This document shows, one piece after another, positions 375 through 11,373 of a DNA stretch of 11,373 bases. The notes below the pieces were generated by a model. That model was not told the origin of the DNA. It did no database searches and saw only the letters and a list, made by a program, of their open reading frames with translations. Position 1 is the stretch's first letter. Each line of letters starts with the position of its first letter. The DNA is taken from assembly GCA_020425835.1 (NCBI GenBank), contig JAGQRC010000045.1, positions 1 through 11,373 on the forward strand, read 5' to 3'. The position numbers were made by a program, and so were the translations under genes. The stretch is from Planctomycetota bacterium (GTDB taxonomy: Bacteria > Planctomycetota > UBA8108 > UBA1146 > JAJFFE01).

Positions 375-1685
375 ATGAGAGTCGCCCTGATCAACCACGC
401 GCGGCTGACCCTCCCGGAGGGCGGTCGTCAGCTCAGCAGTATCTCCATCGGGATCTGGGTCTACGAGATGGCGACGCGCCTCGCCGATCGAGGCTGGGAG
501 GTCACCGCCTACAGCTACCGTGGCGGTCGTTTCCGCAGCCGAGAGACCTCCCATCGAGGCGTCGACTTCGTCGATGTCCCGACGCGCTTCGACGATCTCT
601 GGCATCGCTGGCTGGAGCGTTTCTGGCGCTGGTTCGGACGGACCCGTCGCCCGCGTCGACCGATGTTCGCCTCTCGGCTCTACTACCTCTTCTACGCCGT
701 CCGCGTGGCCCTGGACATCCGCAAGCGGGGCTGCGACGTCGTGCACGTCACCAACTTCTCGCAGTGGGTGCCGATCATTCGCCTGTTCAACCCCGGCGTC
801 GAGGTCGTGCTCCACATGCAGTGCGAGTGGGCGAGTCAGCTCGACCCCGAGGTGATGGAGCCGCGGCTCGCCGCGAGCCGTCGCATCACGGGCTGCAGTC
901 ACTACATCGCCGACAAGATCGCCGAACGTTATCCGCAGTTCGCCGACCGCTGTCTGGGGCTCCACAATGGCTGCAACCTCGAGCAGTTCCAGCCCGATCC
1001 CGAGCGCTCGCGCGCGAGTCGTGAAGTGGTGTTCATCGGGCGGGTCTCTCCGGAGAAGGGGCTCCATGTCCTCTTCGAGGCGTGGCCGGACATCGTCGCC
1101 GAGGTTCCGGAGGCGACGCTCTCCGTCATCGGCCCGCAGACGCCGGCCGCCTACGAGTTCATCGTCGCGATCGACGATGATCCGCTCGTCCAGGCGATGG
1201 AGCGCTTCTACCGCGCACCCTATCTCCAGACCCTTCGCGAGATCCTCCCCGACGACGTGCGGTCGACCGTGGCGTTCGTCGACAACTTGCCGCAGGCGCA
1301 GCTCCAGGACGCCTACTCCCGCGCGGCGGTCTTCGTCTTCCCGTCGGAGTGGAACGAGCCGTTCGGCATGCCGGTGATCGAGACGGGAGCGGCGGGAACG
1401 CCGATCGTCACGACCCGTGGAGGCGGGATCCCGGAGTTGGTGGTCGACGGCGAGACCGGCTTCCTGGTCGATCGCGGGGACGCGGGTCAGCTCGCCCGAG
1501 CGATCACTCGGTTGCTGCAGGACGAAGACCTGCGACAGCGCATGGGATGTGAGGCGCGCCGCCACGTCGAGACGCATTTCGGCTGGGATCGCATCGCGGA
1601 TCGGCTGCACGAGATCCTCGGTGGGATCGACGGGGTCGTCGCCCCGAGGGGTGACGCCGCGTTGGTCGGGAAGGGTCACGGGTAG
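375..1685 (+). CDS. GT4-family glycosyltransferase (GT-B fold)
   Basis: This 436-residue protein is a retaining GT-B glycosyltransferase that would move a sugar from a nucleotide donor to a lipid-linked or growing glycan at the inner face of the membrane. The N-terminal acceptor domain opens with MRVALINHARLTLPEGG and contains ISIGIWVYEMATRLADRGWE. The C-terminal donor domain has VFIGRVSPEKGL (G222, R223, K228) and the GT4 E-x7-E signature, E328 to E336, in NEPFGMPVIETGAAGTP, followed by RGGGIPELV and GETGFLV. I start at ATG 375 because MRVALINHA is the usual beta-strand opening; the frame is open upstream to 60, but that part is arginine-rich and looks non-coding. Only a weak GAAGAG precedes the ATG. 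It is the first gene of the operon, 48 bases before the epimerase. The family is secure; donor and acceptor cannot be read. Confidence 0.92.
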   Translation: MRVALINHARLTLPEGGRQLSSISIGIWVYEMATRLADRGWEVTAYSYRGGRFRSRETSHRGVDFVDVPTRFDDLWHRWLERFWRWFGRTRRPRRPMFASRLYYLFYAVRVALDIRKRGCDVVHVTNFSQWVPIIRLFNPGVEVVLHMQCEWASQLDPEVMEPRLAASRRITGCSHYIADKIAERYPQFADRCLGLHNGCNLEQFQPDPERSRASREVVFIGRVSPEKGLHVLFEAWPDIVAEVPEATLSVIGPQTPAAYEFIVAIDDDPLVQAMERFYRAPYLQTLREILPDDVRSTVAFVDNLPQAQLQDAYSRAAVFVFPSEWNEPFGMPVIETGAAGTPIVTTRGGGIPELVVDGETGFLVDRGDAGQLARAITRLLQDEDLRQRMGCEARRHVETHFGWDRIADRLHEILGGIDGVVAPRGDAALVGKGHG

Positions 1686-1718
1686 GAACGTGGGCGGGGA
1701 CGAGACCGATCTGCGGGT

Positions 1719-1723
1719 AGGAG
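1719..1723 (+). promoter_or_regulatory. Shine-Dalgarno site supporting the TTG start of the epimerase
   Basis: AGGAG ends ten bases before the TTG at 1734, and a GAGG lies nearer at 1726-1729. Together they support the rare TTG start. The nearby ATG at 1724 is in a different frame and leads only into a shadow reading frame. Confidence 0.5.
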
Positions 1724-1733
1724 ATGAGGCACC

Positions 1734-2813
1734 TTGGCATCCGAAGTCCTGATCATCGCCGGCGCACGGCCCAACTTCATGAAGGTCGCGCCGATCCATC
1801 GCGCCATGGGAGTGGACGGACGGCTCGCGCCGCGCCTCGTCCATACCGGGCAGCACTACGATCCCGCGTTGAGCGACCAGGTGATGCAGGATCTCGAGCT
1901 CCCGGCGCCGGATCACCATCTCGGCGTCGGGTCGGGTCATCCCTCGCACCAGCTCGCGCGGATCCTCGAGTCGCTCGATCCGATCGTCGCCGAGCGGAAG
2001 CCCGCCGCGGTGATGGTGGTCGGTGACGTGACGAGCACCGTGGCGGCGGGCCTGGTCGCGGCCAACCGCGAGGTCCCGCTCGTGCACGTCGAGGCGGGGT
2101 TGCGGAGCTTCGACTGGACCATGCCCGAGGAGCGCAACCGGATCGTCGTCGACCGTCTGTCGCAGTTCCTCTTCGTGACCGAACCGTCCGGCCTGAGGAA
2201 CCTCGAGAACGAGGGCATGACGCACGACGGCGTCCACCTGGTCGGCAACGTGATGATCGATTCGCTGTTGCGGATCCTGCCGCGCGCGCGGGCCGAGAAG
2301 GTGCCCGAGCGGCTCGGTCTCGACGGGCCGTACGCGGTGCTCACGATGCATCGACCCGGGAACGTCGACGACCTCGGGCGGTTCCGGGTCATGTTCGAGG
2401 CGCTCGGTCCCATCGCCGAGCGCGCCCCGGTGATCTTCCCGGTCCATCCGCGGACGCGGCCGATGCTCGCGTCGCTCGAGATGCCGGCCGGCTTCCGCTG
2501 CATCGATCCGCTGCGCTACCTCGACTTCATCGGCTTGGTCGAGCGATCGACGTTGGTCCTCACCGACTCGGGAGGACTGCAGGAGGAGACGACGGTGCTC
2601 GGGGTGCCGTGCATCACCCTGCGACCCAACACCGAGCGACCGATCACCATCGAGATCGGCACCAACGAGTTGGTCGACTCCGACGCGCCGCGGATCCGTG
2701 CGCTCGGCGAGAGCGCGTTCGCCGGCCAGTGGAAGAAGGGCTCGGTGCCCGAGCTCTGGGATGGCCACGCGGCGGAGCGCATCGTCGCGATCCTCGCGGA
2801 GGCGCTGGGATGA
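1734..2813 (+). CDS. wecB: UDP-N-acetylglucosamine 2-epimerase, non-hydrolysing
   Basis: The product (359 residues, a normal length) interconverts UDP-GlcNAc and UDP-ManNAc in the cytoplasm, feeding ManNAc-type sugars into surface glycans. Family motifs appear in order: GARPNFMKVAPI near the N-terminus, HTGQHYD, VGDVTSTVAAG, HVEAGLRSFDWTMPEERNR, VGNVMIDSL, TMHRPGNVDD, FPVHPRTR, and TDSGGLQEE followed by GVPCITLRPNTERP. D98, E120, E132 and H206 line up with the catalytic D95, E117, E131 and H213 of E. coli WecB; H238 and the S279-G280-G281 loop belong to the nucleotide-binding half. It starts at TTG (encoded MASEVLIIAGARPN); no in-frame ATG lies nearby, and the signature begins only nine residues in. 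Its TGA overlaps the ATG of the next gene. No UDP-ManNAc dehydrogenase (wecC) is visible, so the sugar may be used as ManNAc or oxidised by an enzyme encoded elsewhere. Confidence 0.95.
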   Translation: MASEVLIIAGARPNFMKVAPIHRAMGVDGRLAPRLVHTGQHYDPALSDQVMQDLELPAPDHHLGVGSGHPSHQLARILESLDPIVAERKPAAVMVVGDVTSTVAAGLVAANREVPLVHVEAGLRSFDWTMPEERNRIVVDRLSQFLFVTEPSGLRNLENEGMTHDGVHLVGNVMIDSLLRILPRARAEKVPERLGLDGPYAVLTMHRPGNVDDLGRFRVMFEALGPIAERAPVIFPVHPRTRPMLASLEMPAGFRCIDPLRYLDFIGLVERSTLVLTDSGGLQEETTVLGVPCITLRPNTERPITIEIGTNELVDSDAPRIRALGESAFAGQWKKGSVPELWDGHAAERIVAILAEALG

Positions 2814-3754
2814 GCTCGCGTCCTCGCGTGAGTGCGGTGATCCCCGCCTACGATCGCGAGCGAACCATCACTCGGGCCATCGACAGTGTGCTCGAGCAGA
2901 GCGAGCCTCCGGTCGAGCTCATCGTCGTGGACGACGGCTCCACCGATGCGACGTTGGAGCGGATCCGGGCCTACGGCGGTCGGGTCCGTCCGATCGCCCA
3001 GGCCAACGCCGGCGCCGGGGCCGCGCGCAACCACGGGGTGCGCGAAGCGTCGGGGGAGTGGATCGCGTTCCTCGACTCCGACGACTACTGGAACCGAGAG
3101 CATCTCGAGCGCATGGGCGATGCGATCGTCGAGACGAAGGGACGCGCCGACGTCTATTTCGGGAACACGCGCCGACCCGAGTCGGAGGGCGGCGAACTGC
3201 AATGGGCGCGCGCCGGGTTCCGTCCGGAGGGCGCGACCGATCTCGTCGACGACGCGCGGGCGTGGGCCTTCGCCTCGAAGCAGCCGTTGATGCTCCAGTC
3301 GAGCCTGTTCCGTCGCGAGCGCTACCTCGCGGTCGGGGGGATCTGGGAAGCGCTCCGCGCGCGCGAGGACACGCACCTCTTCTTCAAGCTCCTGGTCGGC
3401 GCGCCCGCGTGCGCCGTCGACTACTGCTCGACACAGATGACTTCGGATGACGACAGCGGCGGGCGGCTGTCGGAGAAGTACGGTCTGTCCGACCGGCACT
3501 ACGAGCAGACCGAGCGGCTCTACATCGACCTGCTCGAGCGTCTCGACCTGACCCCCGCGGAGCGCCGCGAACTCGCGTTTCGCATCGCTGCGGCGCAGCT
3601 GCGGCTCGCCCGGAGCGCGCTGTCCGCGGGACGCTACCTCTCGGCCGCCTCCTTCTCGGTGCGCGCGCTCTGCCGAAGTCCGCGCCGGTTCTGGGCGGCG
3701 GCACGTCGACGGGTGTCGTCGGGCGACGTCGCGACGGAGGGAGGAAGCGCATGA
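2810..3754 (+). CDS. GT2-family glycosyltransferase (GT-A fold)
   Basis: This 314-residue GT-A transferase opens with VSAVIPAYDRERTITRAIDS. It carries the nucleotide-binding VDDGSTD (residues 40-46), the ribose/uracil segment NAGAGAARNHGV (66-77), and the metal-binding DxD in FLDSDDYW (D89, D91). The segment ALRAREDTHLFFKL supplies the acidic pair expected near the acceptor site. The C-terminal part is helical and basic (RSPRRFWAAARRR), which fits peripheral membrane contact. The ATG overlaps the epimerase stop (ATGA), and GGAGG at 2798-2802 lies seven bases upstream, so the start is well supported. An inverting transfer from a UDP- or dTDP-sugar onto a glycan is expected from the family; the specific sugar is not visible. 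Confidence 0.92.
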   Translation: MSSRPRVSAVIPAYDRERTITRAIDSVLEQSEPPVELIVVDDGSTDATLERIRAYGGRVRPIAQANAGAGAARNHGVREASGEWIAFLDSDDYWNREHLERMGDAIVETKGRADVYFGNTRRPESEGGELQWARAGFRPEGATDLVDDARAWAFASKQPLMLQSSLFRRERYLAVGGIWEALRAREDTHLFFKLLVGAPACAVDYCSTQMTSDDDSGGRLSEKYGLSDRHYEQTERLYIDLLERLDLTPAERRELAFRIAAAQLRLARSALSAGRYLSAASFSVRALCRSPRRFWAAARRRVSSGDVATEGGSA

Positions 3755-4725
3755 CCTCCTCGCCTGCCGTCTCCGCCACCGGCGCGAGCTCCGGCGAGAC
3801 CGAGACCCCCAAGGTCGGGATCGGCATGCCGGTCTACAACGGCGCGGAGCTGATCGGTCTCGCGATCGAGTCGATCCTCGCTCAGACCTTCACCGACTTC
3901 GAGCTGGTCATCGTCGACAATGCCTCGACCGACGACACCGTGGCGATCGCGCGCCACTACGCGGAGCGCGACCCGCGAGTGACGGTGCACATCAACGAGA
4001 GCAACATCGGCGCAGCGCCGAACTTCGATCGCGCGTTCGAGCTGACGCGCGGCCCCTACTTCAAGTGGGCGGCCCACGACGATCTGATGGAGCCGGAGTT
4101 CATCGAGCGTTGCGTGCGCGTGCTCGACGAGGACGATGGCGTCGTCCTCGCGTATCCGAAGGCGATGATCATCGACGAGGTGGGCGCGGACGTCGAGCCG
4201 TACGACCTTCACCTCCCGACCGACAGCGACGACGTGGTGGAGCGGTTCGCCTCGCTCCTGCGCGGGCACAAGTGCTTCGAGGTCTTTGGGCTGATCCGCC
4301 GGGATCCGCTCGCGACCACCCCGGGCATGGGCGCGTACTCGCACGGCGACGGGGTGCTGCTCGCGCGTCTCGCCTTGTTGGGTCGCTTCGTCGAGGTTCC
4401 CCGGTACGACTTCCGCGCTCGACGGCACGCCAAGCAGTCGATGGCGATGCTGGGCGACTACCATCAGTACGCGGTCTGGTTCGATCCTCGGTTGAAGGAC
4501 AAGTGGGTCTTCCCGCAGTGGAAGATCCACTGGGAGTTCTTCAAGTCGATCTGGCGCTCGAGGATCGGCGGACGCGAGCGGCGGCACTGTTACAAGGCGC
4601 TCGCGGGCTGGGCCTGGAAGCGACGGCGATTGCTCCGCGGGGACGTCACCTATCACATTCGACGCGTGCTCCAGAAGTGGACCGGGTGGACGCTCCCCGG
4701 CCGTGCGACGAAGAAGGACTCATGA
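3751..4725 (+). CDS. GT2-family glycosyltransferase with an HDD metal motif
   Basis: The 324-residue product has a polar, Ser/Thr-rich leader of about 20 residues, then VGIGMPVYNGAELIGLAIES, the nucleotide-binding VDNASTDDT (55-63), ESNIGAAPNFDRAF (83-96) and FKWAAHDDLMEPEF. There H109-D110-D111 takes the place of a classical DxD, as in a recognised GT-A subgroup with WxxHDD. GMGAYSHGDGVLLARLALLG follows, its acidic residue perhaps being the catalytic base. The C-terminus is aromatic and basic, suggesting a membrane-surface position. The start overlaps the preceding stop (ATGA), and a purine run GGAGGGAGGAA (3736-3746) serves as ribosome-binding site. It differs clearly from both flanking GT2 genes, so it is not a recent duplicate. 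Its place in the operon implies one step of the same glycan pathway. Confidence 0.91.
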   Translation: MTSSPAVSATGASSGETETPKVGIGMPVYNGAELIGLAIESILAQTFTDFELVIVDNASTDDTVAIARHYAERDPRVTVHINESNIGAAPNFDRAFELTRGPYFKWAAHDDLMEPEFIERCVRVLDEDDGVVLAYPKAMIIDEVGADVEPYDLHLPTDSDDVVERFASLLRGHKCFEVFGLIRRDPLATTPGMGAYSHGDGVLLARLALLGRFVEVPRYDFRARRHAKQSMAMLGDYHQYAVWFDPRLKDKWVFPQWKIHWEFFKSIWRSRIGGRERRHCYKALAGWAWKRRRLLRGDVTYHIRRVLQKWTGWTLPGRATKKDS

Positions 4726-5738
4726 ACCCGACCGACGAACTCGACCTGACCGTGATCATGCCGACGTTCAACCGCGCGGAGATCGTGCGGAAGACGCTCG
4801 AGAGCATGGCCGCGATGGACACGGGCGACCTGCGCTTCGAGATCGCGGTCGTCGACAACAACTCGACCGACGACACGCGCGCGGTGATCGAGTCGTTCGC
4901 CGATCGGCTCCCGGTCCACTACTTGTTCGAGAAGCAGCCCGGCAAGAACTGCGCGCTGAACCGCGGGCTCGACGGCGCGAACCACGGGAAGATCGTCGTC
5001 TTCACCGATGACGACGTGACCGCCGAGCCCGACTGGCTCACCACGATCGTCGAGTGTTGCGCGCGCTGGCCCGAGCACACGGTCTTCGGGGGCAAGATCA
5101 CCGTCGAGTGGCCGTGGCCCGAGGATCGCGTTCCCGGCTGGGCGCATCACCCGTACATCAAGGAGTTCGGCTTCACTTCGCACGACTACGCCGAAGCGGA
5201 GAAGGAGTACGAGGGCGTGCGCCTCCCGTTCGGCCCCAACTTCTGGGCGCGTCGCGAGGCGCTCGAGGGGCGCCGGTTCAACGTCGAGATCGGTCCGCAT
5301 CCGACCAACCGCATCCTCGGCGACGAGACCCTCTTCCTCCGCGAGCTCGTCCGCGACGGCCACGCGCCGGTCTACTCGCCCTACCCGTCGGTCGCCCACC
5401 GGATCCAGGAGGAAGTGCTCACGCCCGAAGGCATCGTGAAGCGCTCCTTCCAGCTCGGCCGAGGCAACCCGCACGTCTACGGCCTGCCGCGCCGCGACCT
5501 GCTTCCCGCTCATCGTCTGAAGTGGCGTCTCATTCGTCGTCTCGCCGTCGTGCGGGACCACTGGGCGATCTTCAAGACGCGCTTCATCTCGGACCCCGAC
5601 ACGCGGGTCGTGCGTGCCGTTCAACGCACCCGCGACCTCGGCTACAACACCGAATGCCTCACTCTCGAGCGCCTCGGCATGCTCGACGTCGGCTTCGACA
5701 CGCCGAAGACGGAAGCGACATCGGTCGAGCGGGTGTGA
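4722..5738 (+). CDS. GT2-family glycosyltransferase, last gene of the glycan operon
   Basis: This 338-residue GT-A transferase starts LTVIMPTFNRAEIVRKTLES and has VVDNNSTDDTRAVI (43-56), KQPGKNCALNRGLDGANHG (71-89), and the metal-binding FTDDDV (D96-D98). GPNFWARREAL (171-181) and GDETLFLREL (200-209) match the acceptor and catalytic-base regions of this subgroup, and SVAHRIQEE plus FQLGRGNPH form the usual C-terminal signature. The ATG overlaps the previous stop (CATGA), with AAGG four bases upstream, a short spacing that suggests translational coupling. The frame is open far upstream, but that part overlaps the previous gene out of frame and is a shadow. Downstream, the strand holds nothing coding until 8996. 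The family is certain; the sugar and linkage are unknown. Confidence 0.92.
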   Translation: MNPTDELDLTVIMPTFNRAEIVRKTLESMAAMDTGDLRFEIAVVDNNSTDDTRAVIESFADRLPVHYLFEKQPGKNCALNRGLDGANHGKIVVFTDDDVTAEPDWLTTIVECCARWPEHTVFGGKITVEWPWPEDRVPGWAHHPYIKEFGFTSHDYAEAEKEYEGVRLPFGPNFWARREALEGRRFNVEIGPHPTNRILGDETLFLRELVRDGHAPVYSPYPSVAHRIQEEVLTPEGIVKRSFQLGRGNPHVYGLPRRDLLPAHRLKWRLIRRLAVVRDHWAIFKTRFISDPDTRVVRAVQRTRDLGYNTECLTLERLGMLDVGFDTPKTEATSVERV

Positions 5739-8995: not shown

Positions 8996-9298
8996 GTGAA
9001 GGACTTCTTGCTCCTGATGCACAACGATCTTCCGAGCGGGGCATCGCGGCCCACCGAGGAGTGGGCGACGTACTTCGCGAAGCTGCGCGCTGCGGGGGTC
9101 TTCCAGGGCGGGAGCTCGATCGGTGGGGGGATCTGCTCGAGGAGGTCGGGCGACTCGCCGGGCATCACGAGCCATCTCTCGGGGTACATCCGCGTTATGG
9201 CCGTCGACCTCGAGGCTGCACGAGATCTCGTGGCAGGGAATCCCGTGTACGAGGCGGGGGGAACGGTCGAGATTCGAGAGCTCCCCCGGGATGAGTGA
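8996..9298 (+). CDS. YCII-related domain protein
   Basis: The 100-residue product has the ferredoxin-like YCII pattern: a first strand MKDFLLLMHND, a helix EEWATYFAKLRAAGVFQGG (residues 22-40), a strand around SGYIRVMAVD, the helix LEAARDLVAGNPVYEAGG, and the closing strand TVEIRELP. The family includes small enzymes and many proteins of unknown role, often near sigma factors or DinB-like proteins. The usual DP near the C-terminal helix is NP here. The start is GTG 8996, with GGAAGG (8981-8986) nine bases upstream; the size matches single-domain family members. Its last eight bases overlap the start of the following exported PDZ protein, which suggests co-translation, but no shared function is evident. 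Confidence 0.8.
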   Translation: MKDFLLLMHNDLPSGASRPTEEWATYFAKLRAAGVFQGGSSIGGGICSRRSGDSPGITSHLSGYIRVMAVDLEAARDLVAGNPVYEAGGTVEIRELPRDE

Positions 9299-11373
9299 CG
9301 GCTGGCGCGGGTCGCGGCGTCGTCAGGCGAGAGGAGTTGCGCCGGTGCTTCCCCTGATCTTCCTGTTCGGATCGATGGTCGCTGGGTCGGCCGACGGCGC
9401 GGACTCCGGTCCGGGCTTCTTCGGCGCGCGTCTCACCGGAGTGATGGTGGAGATCGACGGGACATCGAGAAACGGAGTGCGCATCGATTCGCTCCTGCCC
9501 GGGGGCGGCGCGGCGGCGGCGGGGTTGATCGTCGGCGATGTCGTGCTCGCTCTGAATGGTGGTGCGTTCGAAGACGGCAGCGATCCGGCGCGCGCCGCGT
9601 TGGAGGCCGCGATTCGCGGTCGGCGGCCCGGCGATCGGTTGTCGCTCACGGTGACTCGCGAGGTCGTGACGCTCGAAGGGCTGGGCGAGCCGCTGGGGGA
9701 AGAGGAGCGTGCGCGACTCCTCGCCGACCCGGACCGTGCGGCGCGCGCGGCGGGTGAGGGCCACTCGCGCGATCTTCGGCTCTCCTGCGAGCGTCGGTTC
9801 TTCGACGTCGAGGTGGTGCTCGGCGTGCACCCTTCCTATCGCGGGTCGCCCGTTCCGTCGTTGGAGTGGAAACCGACCTCGACGCAGTTCGGGCCCGCGC
9901 GAGAGTTGGAAGCCTGGCTCGAGGAGTACGGGATTGCGCACGACTCCGCCGACCTCCGTGCTCGGCTCGCTGCGATCGAGGAGCGAGGGGACCCGGCGCG
10001 TTCGCCGAGCATCGTCGCTGCGCACCGGTACCCGTTCGCCCTTCCCGAGGTCGTCAGCCACGTCGTGGGGCTCGACGAGCTCCCGTCGCAGCGCCCACTC
10101 GGTGACTTGGGGGCGTGGTTCCTGGCGTCGGCGGCGCGTGCCGATGGTGGCGCGACCACACCGTCTCGACGCTCGGCATCGCCGAAGGGAACCGTCGACG
10201 AGATTCTCGATACCCTGGCGTCGATCCTCGATCGGGCCGTGGAGCAGCGCGACGCGGCGATCGCTTCGCTCACGGCGCAGGACGTGGACTTCATCGATGC
10301 ACACTGGCACGGCCTGACGGGTCGTTTGCTCGAGGACATCTATCTCTACAACGACGAGGACACCGAGCGCCTCGCTGCGAATCGCCGGATCCTGGAGCTG
10401 GGTTGTCGGGTCGATCGCCGCCTCCTGCGCGAGTGCGCGGGTGAGCTGCTCGGCGTGGTGGCCGAGATCGAGTCGTGGAAGGAGAGTCTCCTCGCGGCGG
10501 TTCGAGCGGAGAACGGAGACACGACTCGGCCGATCATCGCCGAACGCGTCACACCCCACGGTCGCATCATCATCTCCGGGACCGGCGACACGTGGCATCG
10601 TGAGACCGATGTCGCGCTCCTCATCGATCTCGGAGGAGATGATTTCTACGGCAACGGTGCCGGGTCGACGGTGGAAGAGCTTCGCGATCCGCGGCGTTCG
10701 GTGAGGCCGCTGCCGATCTCCCTGGTCATCGATTGCGCGGGGAACGATGCGTACGAGTCGACGCACGATGGTGCGCAGGGGTTCGGTCTCCTCGGCGTCG
10801 GGGTCCTGGTCGACGTTGCCGGTGACGACACCTATCTCGGCCAGCGGTGGGCTCAGGGGGCAGGCTTCCTCGGGCTCGGCATCCTGATCGACGACGGCGG
10901 GAGCGATCGCTATCGGTCGGAAGGTCTCTCGCAGGGAACGGCGCTCTTCGGAGCGGCCGCGCTCCTCGATGCATCGGGCGATGATCGCTACGACCTGGCG
11001 CTCTACGGGCAGGGGCTCGGATTGCCCGGAGGTCTCGGCGCCATCGTCGACCGGTCCGGCGATGACGAGTACTTCGCGAAGGGACGTCGACCCACGGGCT
11101 ACGGCGACGAGGGCATCTTCGACGCGTGGGCGCAGGGGTGCGGACTCGGCTTGAGGCTCGACGCATCGGGAGGACTCGGGTTGCTCATCGACGGGGATGG
11201 TCGGGATCGTTACGAGGCCGGGAACTTCGCGCAGGGCGGCGGCTACTACTTCGGCTTCGGAGCCCTCCTCGACCGGGGTACCGAGGACGATCGATACATC
11301 GGCTCGCGCTACAACCAGGGCTTCCCGGCGCATCAAGCCGCGGGCTTCTTCTGCGAGCAGGGCGGCAACGACC
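9291..11373 (+). CDS. Exported PDZ protein with a C-terminal repeat of about 27 residues, cut by the right edge
   Basis: The frame is open from ATG 9291 to the window end (694 codons, no stop). Residues 1-34 form a signal peptide: an Arg-rich start (SRRRQARG), the hydrophobic stretch VAPVLPLIFLFGSMV, and likely cleavage after GSA (A34). A PDZ-like domain spans about 43-124 (FFGARLTG, VRIDSLLPGGGAAAAGLIVG, DVVLALNG, GDRLSLTV). About 125-439 is mostly helical and unrecognised. From residue 440 a repeat begins with GxDxY loops whose tyrosines fall at 453, 488, 515, 541, 567, 594, 641 and 669, with a ninth loop starting at the edge. The unit is GxDxY, six or seven residues, QG, a Gly-rich strand, then two hydrophobics and D. 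It overlaps the YCII stop by eight bases. GTG 9345 is an alternative start. I cannot name a family for the repeat; its role, perhaps outer-surface or periplasmic scaffolding, is inference. Confidence 0.85.
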   Translation, partial: MSDGWRGSRRRQARGVAPVLPLIFLFGSMVAGSADGADSGPGFFGARLTGVMVEIDGTSRNGVRIDSLLPGGGAAAAGLIVGDVVLALNGGAFEDGSDPARAALEAAIRGRRPGDRLSLTVTREVVTLEGLGEPLGEEERARLLADPDRAARAAGEGHSRDLRLSCERRFFDVEVVLGVHPSYRGSPVPSLEWKPTSTQFGPARELEAWLEEYGIAHDSADLRARLAAIEERGDPARSPSIVAAHRYPFALPEVVSHVVGLDELPSQRPLGDLGAWFLASAARADGGATTPSRRSASPKGTVDEILDTLASILDRAVEQRDAAIASLTAQDVDFIDAHWHGLTGRLLEDIYLYNDEDTERLAANRRILELGCRVDRRLLRECAGELLGVVAEIESWKESLLAAVRAENGDTTRPIIAERVTPHGRIIISGTGDTWHRETDVALLIDLGGDDFYGNGAGSTVEELRDPRRSVRPLPISLVIDCAGNDAYESTHDGAQGFGLLGVGVLVDVAGDDTYLGQRWAQGAGFLGLGILIDDGGSDRYRSEGLSQGTALFGAAALLDASGDDRYDLALYGQGLGLPGGLGAIVDRSGDDEYFAKGRRPTGYGDEGIFDAWAQGCGLGLRLDASGGLGLLIDGDGRDRYEAGNFAQGGGYYFGFGALLDRGTEDDRYIGSRYNQGFPAHQAAGFFCEQGGND
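9332..9336 (+). promoter_or_regulatory. Shine-Dalgarno site that supports an internal GTG start
   Basis: AGGAG lies eight bases before an in-frame GTG at 9345 (codon 19 of the PDZ gene), while ATG 9291 has no good site. Starting at 9345 would give a signal peptide with no positive charge (MLPLIFLFGSMVAGSA), so I keep ATG 9291 as the first choice. Both starts may be used. Confidence 0.4.
10608..11373 (+). repeat. Tandem protein repeat, about 27 residues per unit, in the PDZ protein
   Basis: Nine units are visible, the last cut by the edge. The distance between the tyrosines of successive GxDxY loops is 35, 27, 26, 26, 27, 47 and 28 residues. Examples of the loop are GGDDFY, AGNDAY, AGDDTY, GGSDRY, SGDDRY, SGDDEY and GRDRY; seven of the units follow it with a QG pair (AQGFG, AQGAG, SQGTA, GQGLG, AQGCG, AQGGG, NQGFP). 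The loops resemble RTX calcium nonapeptides (GGxGxDxUx), and 27 is three times nine, but the intervening strands are not RTX consensus. A beta-solenoid is a reasonable inference. The copies differ at DNA level, so this is an old repeat array, not a recent expansion. Confidence 0.75.

Follow-up and report, generated by a model that had tools for sequence, protein, structure and literature searches.

What does the C-terminal repeat of a probably exported PDZ protein form, and what might it do, when the repeat carries no family name? The question is raised by a stretch of 11,373 nucleotides from a Planctomycetota bacterium (assembly GCA_020425835.1, contig JAGQRC010000045.1), hereafter the window, which ends within a gene for a protein combining a probable signal peptide, a PDZ domain, an alpha-helical domain, and a repeat of the GxDxY...QG type (Table 1). 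Relatives of this protein run on for about 110 or more residues past residue 694, where the window cuts it, with further coils. On balance, the evidence tips toward an exported envelope protein with a calcium-bridged solenoid core that bears a functional surface and is joined to an exchangeable protein-binding module.

Seven GxDxY motifs (residues 449, 484, 511, 537, 563, 590, and 637; nucleotides 10635-11199) and an EDDRY variant at residue 665 open eight complete units of 35, 27, 26, 26, 27, 47, 28, and 27 residues, of which two are stretched, as the original prediction had described. In 20,000 composition-preserving shuffles of the C-terminal 257 residues, the motif occurred 0.33 times on average and at most four times, and none reached the seven observed; self-identity exceeded 0.17 at lag 26 alone among lags 5-59. 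The fixed spacing proposed between GxDxY and QG also stands, with six residues after the tyrosine in five units (511, 537, 563, 637, and 665) and seven in one (484), the 47-residue unit having 20. In 165 sequences (45 aligned solenoids and 120 listed relatives, partly overlapping), 823 units of 26-27 residues give the turn as D(91%)/E(6%)-x-[AGS](65%)-G-[DN](80%)-D-x-Y, in which G, D, and Y/F were set by the search pattern and the remaining positions are observed; Asp or Glu fills position 1 in 97% of these units, and Gly is found at position 2 in just 8%.

A regular beta-solenoid had been predicted, and structure models of both the window protein and a PDZ-less relative, P0023, are regular, confident solenoids, so that a model lacking a regular repeat fold, which would have spoken against the idea, was not what was obtained. 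The models place roughly one coil, with one GxD turn, in each unit of 26-28 residues, and the earlier equation of the period with three nonapeptides is not supported. PDZ chains took up the list when folds were searched with the window model; for the solenoid itself P0023 was used instead, and its nearest solved fold is 3p4g, the RTX-like calcium beta-helix of the Marinomonas primoryensis antifreeze protein MpAFP. Canonical RTX rolls are missing from the P0023 fold list, an absence that does not exclude them. Among viral predicted structures the best match had an E of 1.2, and a sequence profile of the solenoid found no solved relative, 3p4g included. The regularity of the modeled coils suggests that the loop Asp residues stack on one face, and the match to 3p4g that the solenoid would be right-handed.

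Counts of spacing and residues in 45 aligned solenoids (44 for some positions beyond the window) show how little this domain varies. The distance between the GxD anchors D513 and D539 is 26 or 27 in all 45, that between D565 and D592 is 27 in 42, and that between D667 and D694 is 27 in all 45, followed by an interval of 28 in 43 of 44; coil 6 measures exactly 47 residues in 37 of 45. Variation is found in the first interval (20-51) and the last (31-47), and D539-D565 is 59 or 60 in two members. This spacing shows that the two stretched units differ in kind, that of 47 residues being a conserved part of the domain and that of 35 its variable N-terminal end. The longer unit is therefore not a random insertion decorating a solenoid. 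A repeat of variable copy number is ruled out by the near-fixed spacing, the first and last intervals excepted, and the constancy of coil order and spacing across 45 members indicates a globular domain rather than an expandable array. Prediction together with conservation strongly supports the modeled domain order, the solenoid fold, and the near-fixed coil register.

At a threshold of 85% or more of the aligned solenoids, the conserved positions of coils 1-4 are the Gly, Asp, and Tyr of the repeat and a single Leu; in coil 5, Q574 at a QG position joins them. Conserved residues that do not belong to the repeat begin with coil 6: Y604 (41/45), R622 (44/45), F646, Y652 (44/45), Y674 (42/45), and H681 (44/45) within the window, and beyond it a Trp and an Asp in coil 9 and Asn, Tyr, His, and Ser in coil 11. 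The coil-9 Asp is kept in 44 of 44, PDZ-less relatives included, and the members that retain it with R622, Y652, and H681 include the five PDZ-less loci L081-L085, except that L083, which carries a PKD domain, alone of the 45 replaces H681 by Leu. Counted to the strand end, H681 and the coil-9 Asp occupy the same place in successive coils and are probably stacked. Whether coils 6-11 hold a functional site is, on this pattern of conservation, about an even question.

Table 1. Features of the PDZ-helical-solenoid gene in the window (all on the + strand)
Feature	Positions	Remarks
Coding sequence, PDZ-helical-solenoid protein	9291..11373	ATG at 9291; 694 residues; open at window end
Probable N-terminal signal peptide (residues 1-36)	9291..9398	Arg-rich then hydrophobic; low model confidence
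HtrA-type PDZ domain (model residues 37-184)	9399..9842	
Alpha-helical domain (residues 201-410)	9891..10520	From DSSP of the model, the P0023 model, and the alignment
Predicted beta-solenoid domain (residues 417-694)	10539..11372	Incomplete at window end; from models and alignment
Coil 1, GDDFY, 35 residues (449-483)	10635..10739	Most variable interval of the family (20-51)
Coil 2, GNDAY, 27 residues (484-510)	10740..10820	
Coil 3, GDDTY, 26 residues (511-536)	10821..10898	
Coil 4, GSDRY, 26 residues (537-562)	10899..10976	
Coil 5, GDDRY, 27 residues (563-589)	10977..11057	
Coil 6, GDDEY, 47 residues (590-636)	11058..11198	Long coil kept in the family
Coil 7, GRDRY, 28 residues (637-664)	11199..11282	
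Coil 8, EDDRY variant, 27 residues (665-691)	11283..11363	
Coil 9 start, GND (692-694)	11364..11373	Cut by window end
Stretch with window part of conserved non-repeat residues	11100..11333	Y604 (11100), R622 (11154), Y652 (11244), Y674 (11310), H681 (11331)

In the N-terminal part of the protein, PF00595 (PDZ) matches residues 40-107 at 27.3 bits against a cut-off of 23.2, and the model contains the corresponding PDZ fold; the Pfam scan of the window protein found no families other than PDZ ones and no protease domain, and the NCBIfam scan gave weak matches to PDZ proteins only, TIGR02037 lying far below its cut-off (22.1 vs. 416.2 bits) with the PDZ part alone aligned. The Arg-rich, then hydrophobic N terminus makes export likely; the predicted local distance difference test score of the model is below 50 over residues 1-33, and a crude pattern found a lipobox-like motif in 15 of 177 long relatives.

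The pairing of PDZ and repeat, which the original prediction singled out as unfamiliar, holds for the window protein, but across the family PDZ is just one of several partners, and some members have none. Among 30 members scanned, 23 matched the PDZ family PF17820 and 23 the PDZ family PF13180, with E up to 0.1. Pfam scans of seven proteins, five of them chosen as PDZ-less, found PDZ in L043 and L061, PKD in L083, HEAT repeats in L084, and HEAT just below the cut-off in L085 (27.4 vs. 27.7 bits); scans of eight further long members, from 24 solenoid open reading frames (ORFs) listed, found HEAT in L107, L111 (N-terminal), L113, and L118 and PDZ in L109 and L110. A single member of the 30, P0103, has an N-terminal alpha/beta hydrolase (PF12146) followed by PDZ, helical domain, and solenoid. 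In the Candidatus Eisenbacteria phylum, 14 loci (L119-L132) were chosen from 19 matching genomes, and tblastn placed a HEAT stretch immediately downstream of the solenoid, in the same orientation, in all 14. Solenoid and HEAT are fused in L120, L121, and L132, and the unfused solenoids of L122, L123, and L129 have no Pfam match of their own and are followed by a gene for a HEAT protein; that the two are fused in some genomes and adjacent in others indicates a link between them. As the helical domain is also found in relatives without PDZ and the partners vary, the core of the family comprises the solenoid and the helical domain, with an exchangeable protein-binding module.

The PDZ-less solenoid gene of the Eisenbacteria-phylum loci L120-L132 comes after a gene for a molybdopterin-binding, xanthine-dehydrogenase-like subunit, an identity taken from a Pfam scan of one locus, L120. 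This gene family is present in 11 of the 14 loci, and the two genes overlap by four bases in seven of the 12 in which a solenoid ORF was called.

The family is large. At least 1519 proteins matched residues 300-694 at E up to 1e-3 (7995 candidates scored), and at least 3315 in a collection of 5.8 billion sequences matched a profile of the solenoid alone (7997 candidates scored); among the 120 matches listed for each search, any name given was "hypothetical protein" or "PDZ domain-containing protein". Eighty of the 85 confirmed genome loci were retained, mostly from the PDZ branch, and by record title they belong to Planctomycetota, Candidatus Eisenbacteria, Lentisphaerae, SAR324, Desulfobacterales, Calditrichaeota, Burkholderiales, Amphritea, and others. 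With phyla named from the record titles of their center genomes, the solenoid profile had matches in 114 of the 294 genomes sampled from the phylum of L001 (record title Planctomycetota), in 19 of 20 in that of L006 (titled Eisenbacteria), and in one of 299, Amphritea itself, in that of Amphritea balenae. The solenoid is thus probably a standard component in the Eisenbacteria phylum and in Planctomycetota. The shared coil order and the residues conserved at one end suggest that the protein bearing it plays a working role in the cell envelope. No plasmid relatives of the window protein were found at E 1e-5. One locus, L068, lies in a metagenome-assembled genome titled Bordetella parapertussis, yet its solenoid aligns with environmental relatives, and the title may be a misassignment.

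That the repeat is unnamed was confirmed in the members scanned. Taken singly, the 45 solenoids gave matches to 10 Pfam families (E up to 1; best 0.021) and four NCBIfam families (E up to 0.1; best 0.037), no repeat family among them, each match being confined to one or two members and its score at chance level. A confident match to a known repeat family, the other result that would have spoken against the original idea, therefore did not appear in these scans.

Together, these observations can be placed in a concrete scheme. About 12 coils, of 26-28 residues except for one of 47, would make up a core in the form of a right-handed beta-solenoid. Each coil would be closed on one edge by the D-x-[AGS]-G-[DN]-D-x-Y turn, and the two Asp residues per turn would stack into ladders with calcium ions bridging them, much as in the Marinomonas antifreeze adhesin with its one-sided calcium beta-helix. 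Calcium is to be expected since two carboxylates in each of about a dozen stacked coils would be mutually repulsive unless cations were present, and we consider this putative stapling reasonably likely. In the cytosol, where calcium is low, the domain would stay open, and it would fold after export, presumably through Sec. The conserved Tyr, Arg, His, Trp, Asp, and Asn of the C-terminal half (coils 6-9 and 11) may constitute a ligand-binding or catalytic surface, for which a glycan or an envelope protein is a candidate ligand, and PDZ in the window protein, or HEAT in other branches, would recruit the solenoid to partner proteins. A more specific and quite tentative proposal is a class of exported enzymes or receptors, near-universal in the Eisenbacteria phylum and common in Planctomycetota, with an active site (Tyr/Arg/His/Asp/Asn) on calcium-stapled coils 6-11, calcium-triggered folding after Sec export, and PDZ and HEAT as interchangeable targeting parts.

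Several points count against this scheme. The PDZ/HEAT module is not universal, since Pfam found neither in L081 (cut by a contig end), L082, L105, and L112. The PDZ branch has no conserved neighbor gene. Foldseek matched P0023 to 3p4g weakly (E 1.2, probability 0.23), the structural ranking of 3p4g rests on 89 aligned chains only (VIA), and hhalign against an RTX alignment of only three sequences gave a probability of 0.2; with Asp at position 1 and Gly at position 2 in so few units, the turn cannot be a canonical RTX calcium turn. At the 85% threshold coil 10 contributes no extra conserved residue, one of its positions being Asn in 31 of 44 and Gln in 11 of 44. Finally, the solenoid is the best conserved domain by mean pairwise identity (0.57, against 0.30 for the helical domain and 0.32 for PDZ, in 82 sequences), a contrast biased by the use of residues 300-694 as the query with which relatives were collected.

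The main alternative is a passive, rigid scaffold or spacer, in which the solenoid would anchor or space PDZ or HEAT domains in the envelope without any ligand or active site, its Asp ladders being structural. PDZ and HEAT, both found in members, are protein-binding modules; no enzyme family was matched by the 45 solenoids in Pfam or NCBIfam, and the lack of a conserved neighbor in the PDZ branch fits as well, the most widely shared neighbor family occurring in eight of 80 loci and the commonest Pfam family among same-strand neighbors within 400 bases, BrkB, in six of 69. Spacers, however, tend to vary in length and sequence, whereas here the coil spacing is near-fixed, the solenoid is the best conserved domain, and R622, Y652, H681, and the coil-9 Asp persist even in PDZ-less loci. 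We regard a pure scaffold as possible but doubtful. Unlikely is a carbohydrate-active, broadly pectate-lyase-like beta-helix enzyme without calcium ladders: 5zku stood 7.7 Z units below 3p4g in the alignment of the 89 chains, and Asp residues lie at one edge of every coil, to our knowledge not a feature of such enzymes.

Slightly less likely still is a divergent true RTX domain, homologous to nonapeptide proteins and type I secreted. The resemblance noted originally is upheld for the fold, the nearest solved one being RTX-like, but not for the repeat sequence: the family shares a GxDxU-like loop in which Asp is followed by a large hydrophobic residue at +2, but Gly-Gly is missing, and one turn is found per 26-28-residue coil, in contrast to the two GGxGxD turns per 18-residue coil given for RTX in its account of the beta-roll (PMC6891781). 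PF00353 is absent from the ten Pfam families matched at E up to 1, and the window protein begins with a signal-like stretch. RTX membership, defined by tandem GGxGxDxUx, was rejected on the turn profile, the PF00353 null in the 45 solenoids, and the hhalign result against three RTX segments, and is kept as an analogy. An ice- or surface-binding array, suggested by the antifreeze domain being the nearest solved fold, is very unlikely, as no 19-residue repeat with an outward Thr/Asx array was found, the Thr place of xGTGND is mostly A, G, S, or E with Thr outside the seven commonest residues, and the extra conserved residues, unlike a flat array, do not recur from coil to coil.

Elsewhere in the window, a small YCII-related protein (8996-9298, +; PF03795, below cut-off) is encoded immediately upstream, and its gene shares eight bases with the start of the PDZ gene, so that translational coupling is possible. 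Further upstream, a run of glycosyltransferase-type genes (375-5738, +; Pfam matches for three of five genes, the three scanned), with a UDP-GlcNAc 2-epimerase at 1734-2813, is probably a surface polysaccharide cluster. Two ORFs lie on the opposite strand (8061-6880 and 6964-6341, -), the second starting within the first, which has a signal-like start; their RGDVNANG and RGDINADG stretches we take to be dockerin-like, and the repeats of the first kelch-like. The boundary between them may reflect a frameshift or a misread start.

How, then, does the protein compare with known systems? HtrA, DegP, and DegQ are PDZ proteins, but the window protein has no protease domain by Pfam and continues from PDZ into the helical domain and solenoid. 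A 2019 survey of microbial PDZ proteins recognized 12 families, noted that Planctomycetes are rich in PDZ proteins, and left 7% of its PDZ proteins unclassified; the partners named in the legend of its Figure 4 are of the protease, pilus, radical SAM, kinase, and DUF399 kinds, with no solenoid among them (PMC6411480). The closest counterpart is region IV of MpAFP (also MpIBP; PDB 3p4g), which the models resemble in being predicted parallel beta-helices whose coils each have a single acidic turn, and in sequence in the G-[ND]-D-x-hydrophobic part of the turn. In the antifreeze beta-helix, as its structural account has it, calcium is bridged by Asp on one edge only (PMC6891781). The MpAFP repeat is xGTGNDxuxuGGxuxGxux, 19 residues, whereas the coils here have 26-28 residues (coil 6, 47), Asp at turn position 1, no Gly at position 2, an inserted Q-G segment, and, in coils 6-9 and 11, conserved residues that are not part of the repeat; and where MpAFP is a giant type I secreted adhesin, this family has an N-terminal signal-like stretch and PDZ or HEAT. 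This kind of solenoid fold, each coil having one acidic turn, was already known from 3p4g; what is new is a domain without a curated family, a solved sequence relative, or a description found in the open-licence PubMed Central (PMC) literature. Unlike many repeat arrays, it combines a near-fixed coil order with conserved non-repeat residues, which makes the hypothesis concrete and testable; it would also carry the one-sided calcium solenoid beyond giant adhesins and into compact exported proteins.
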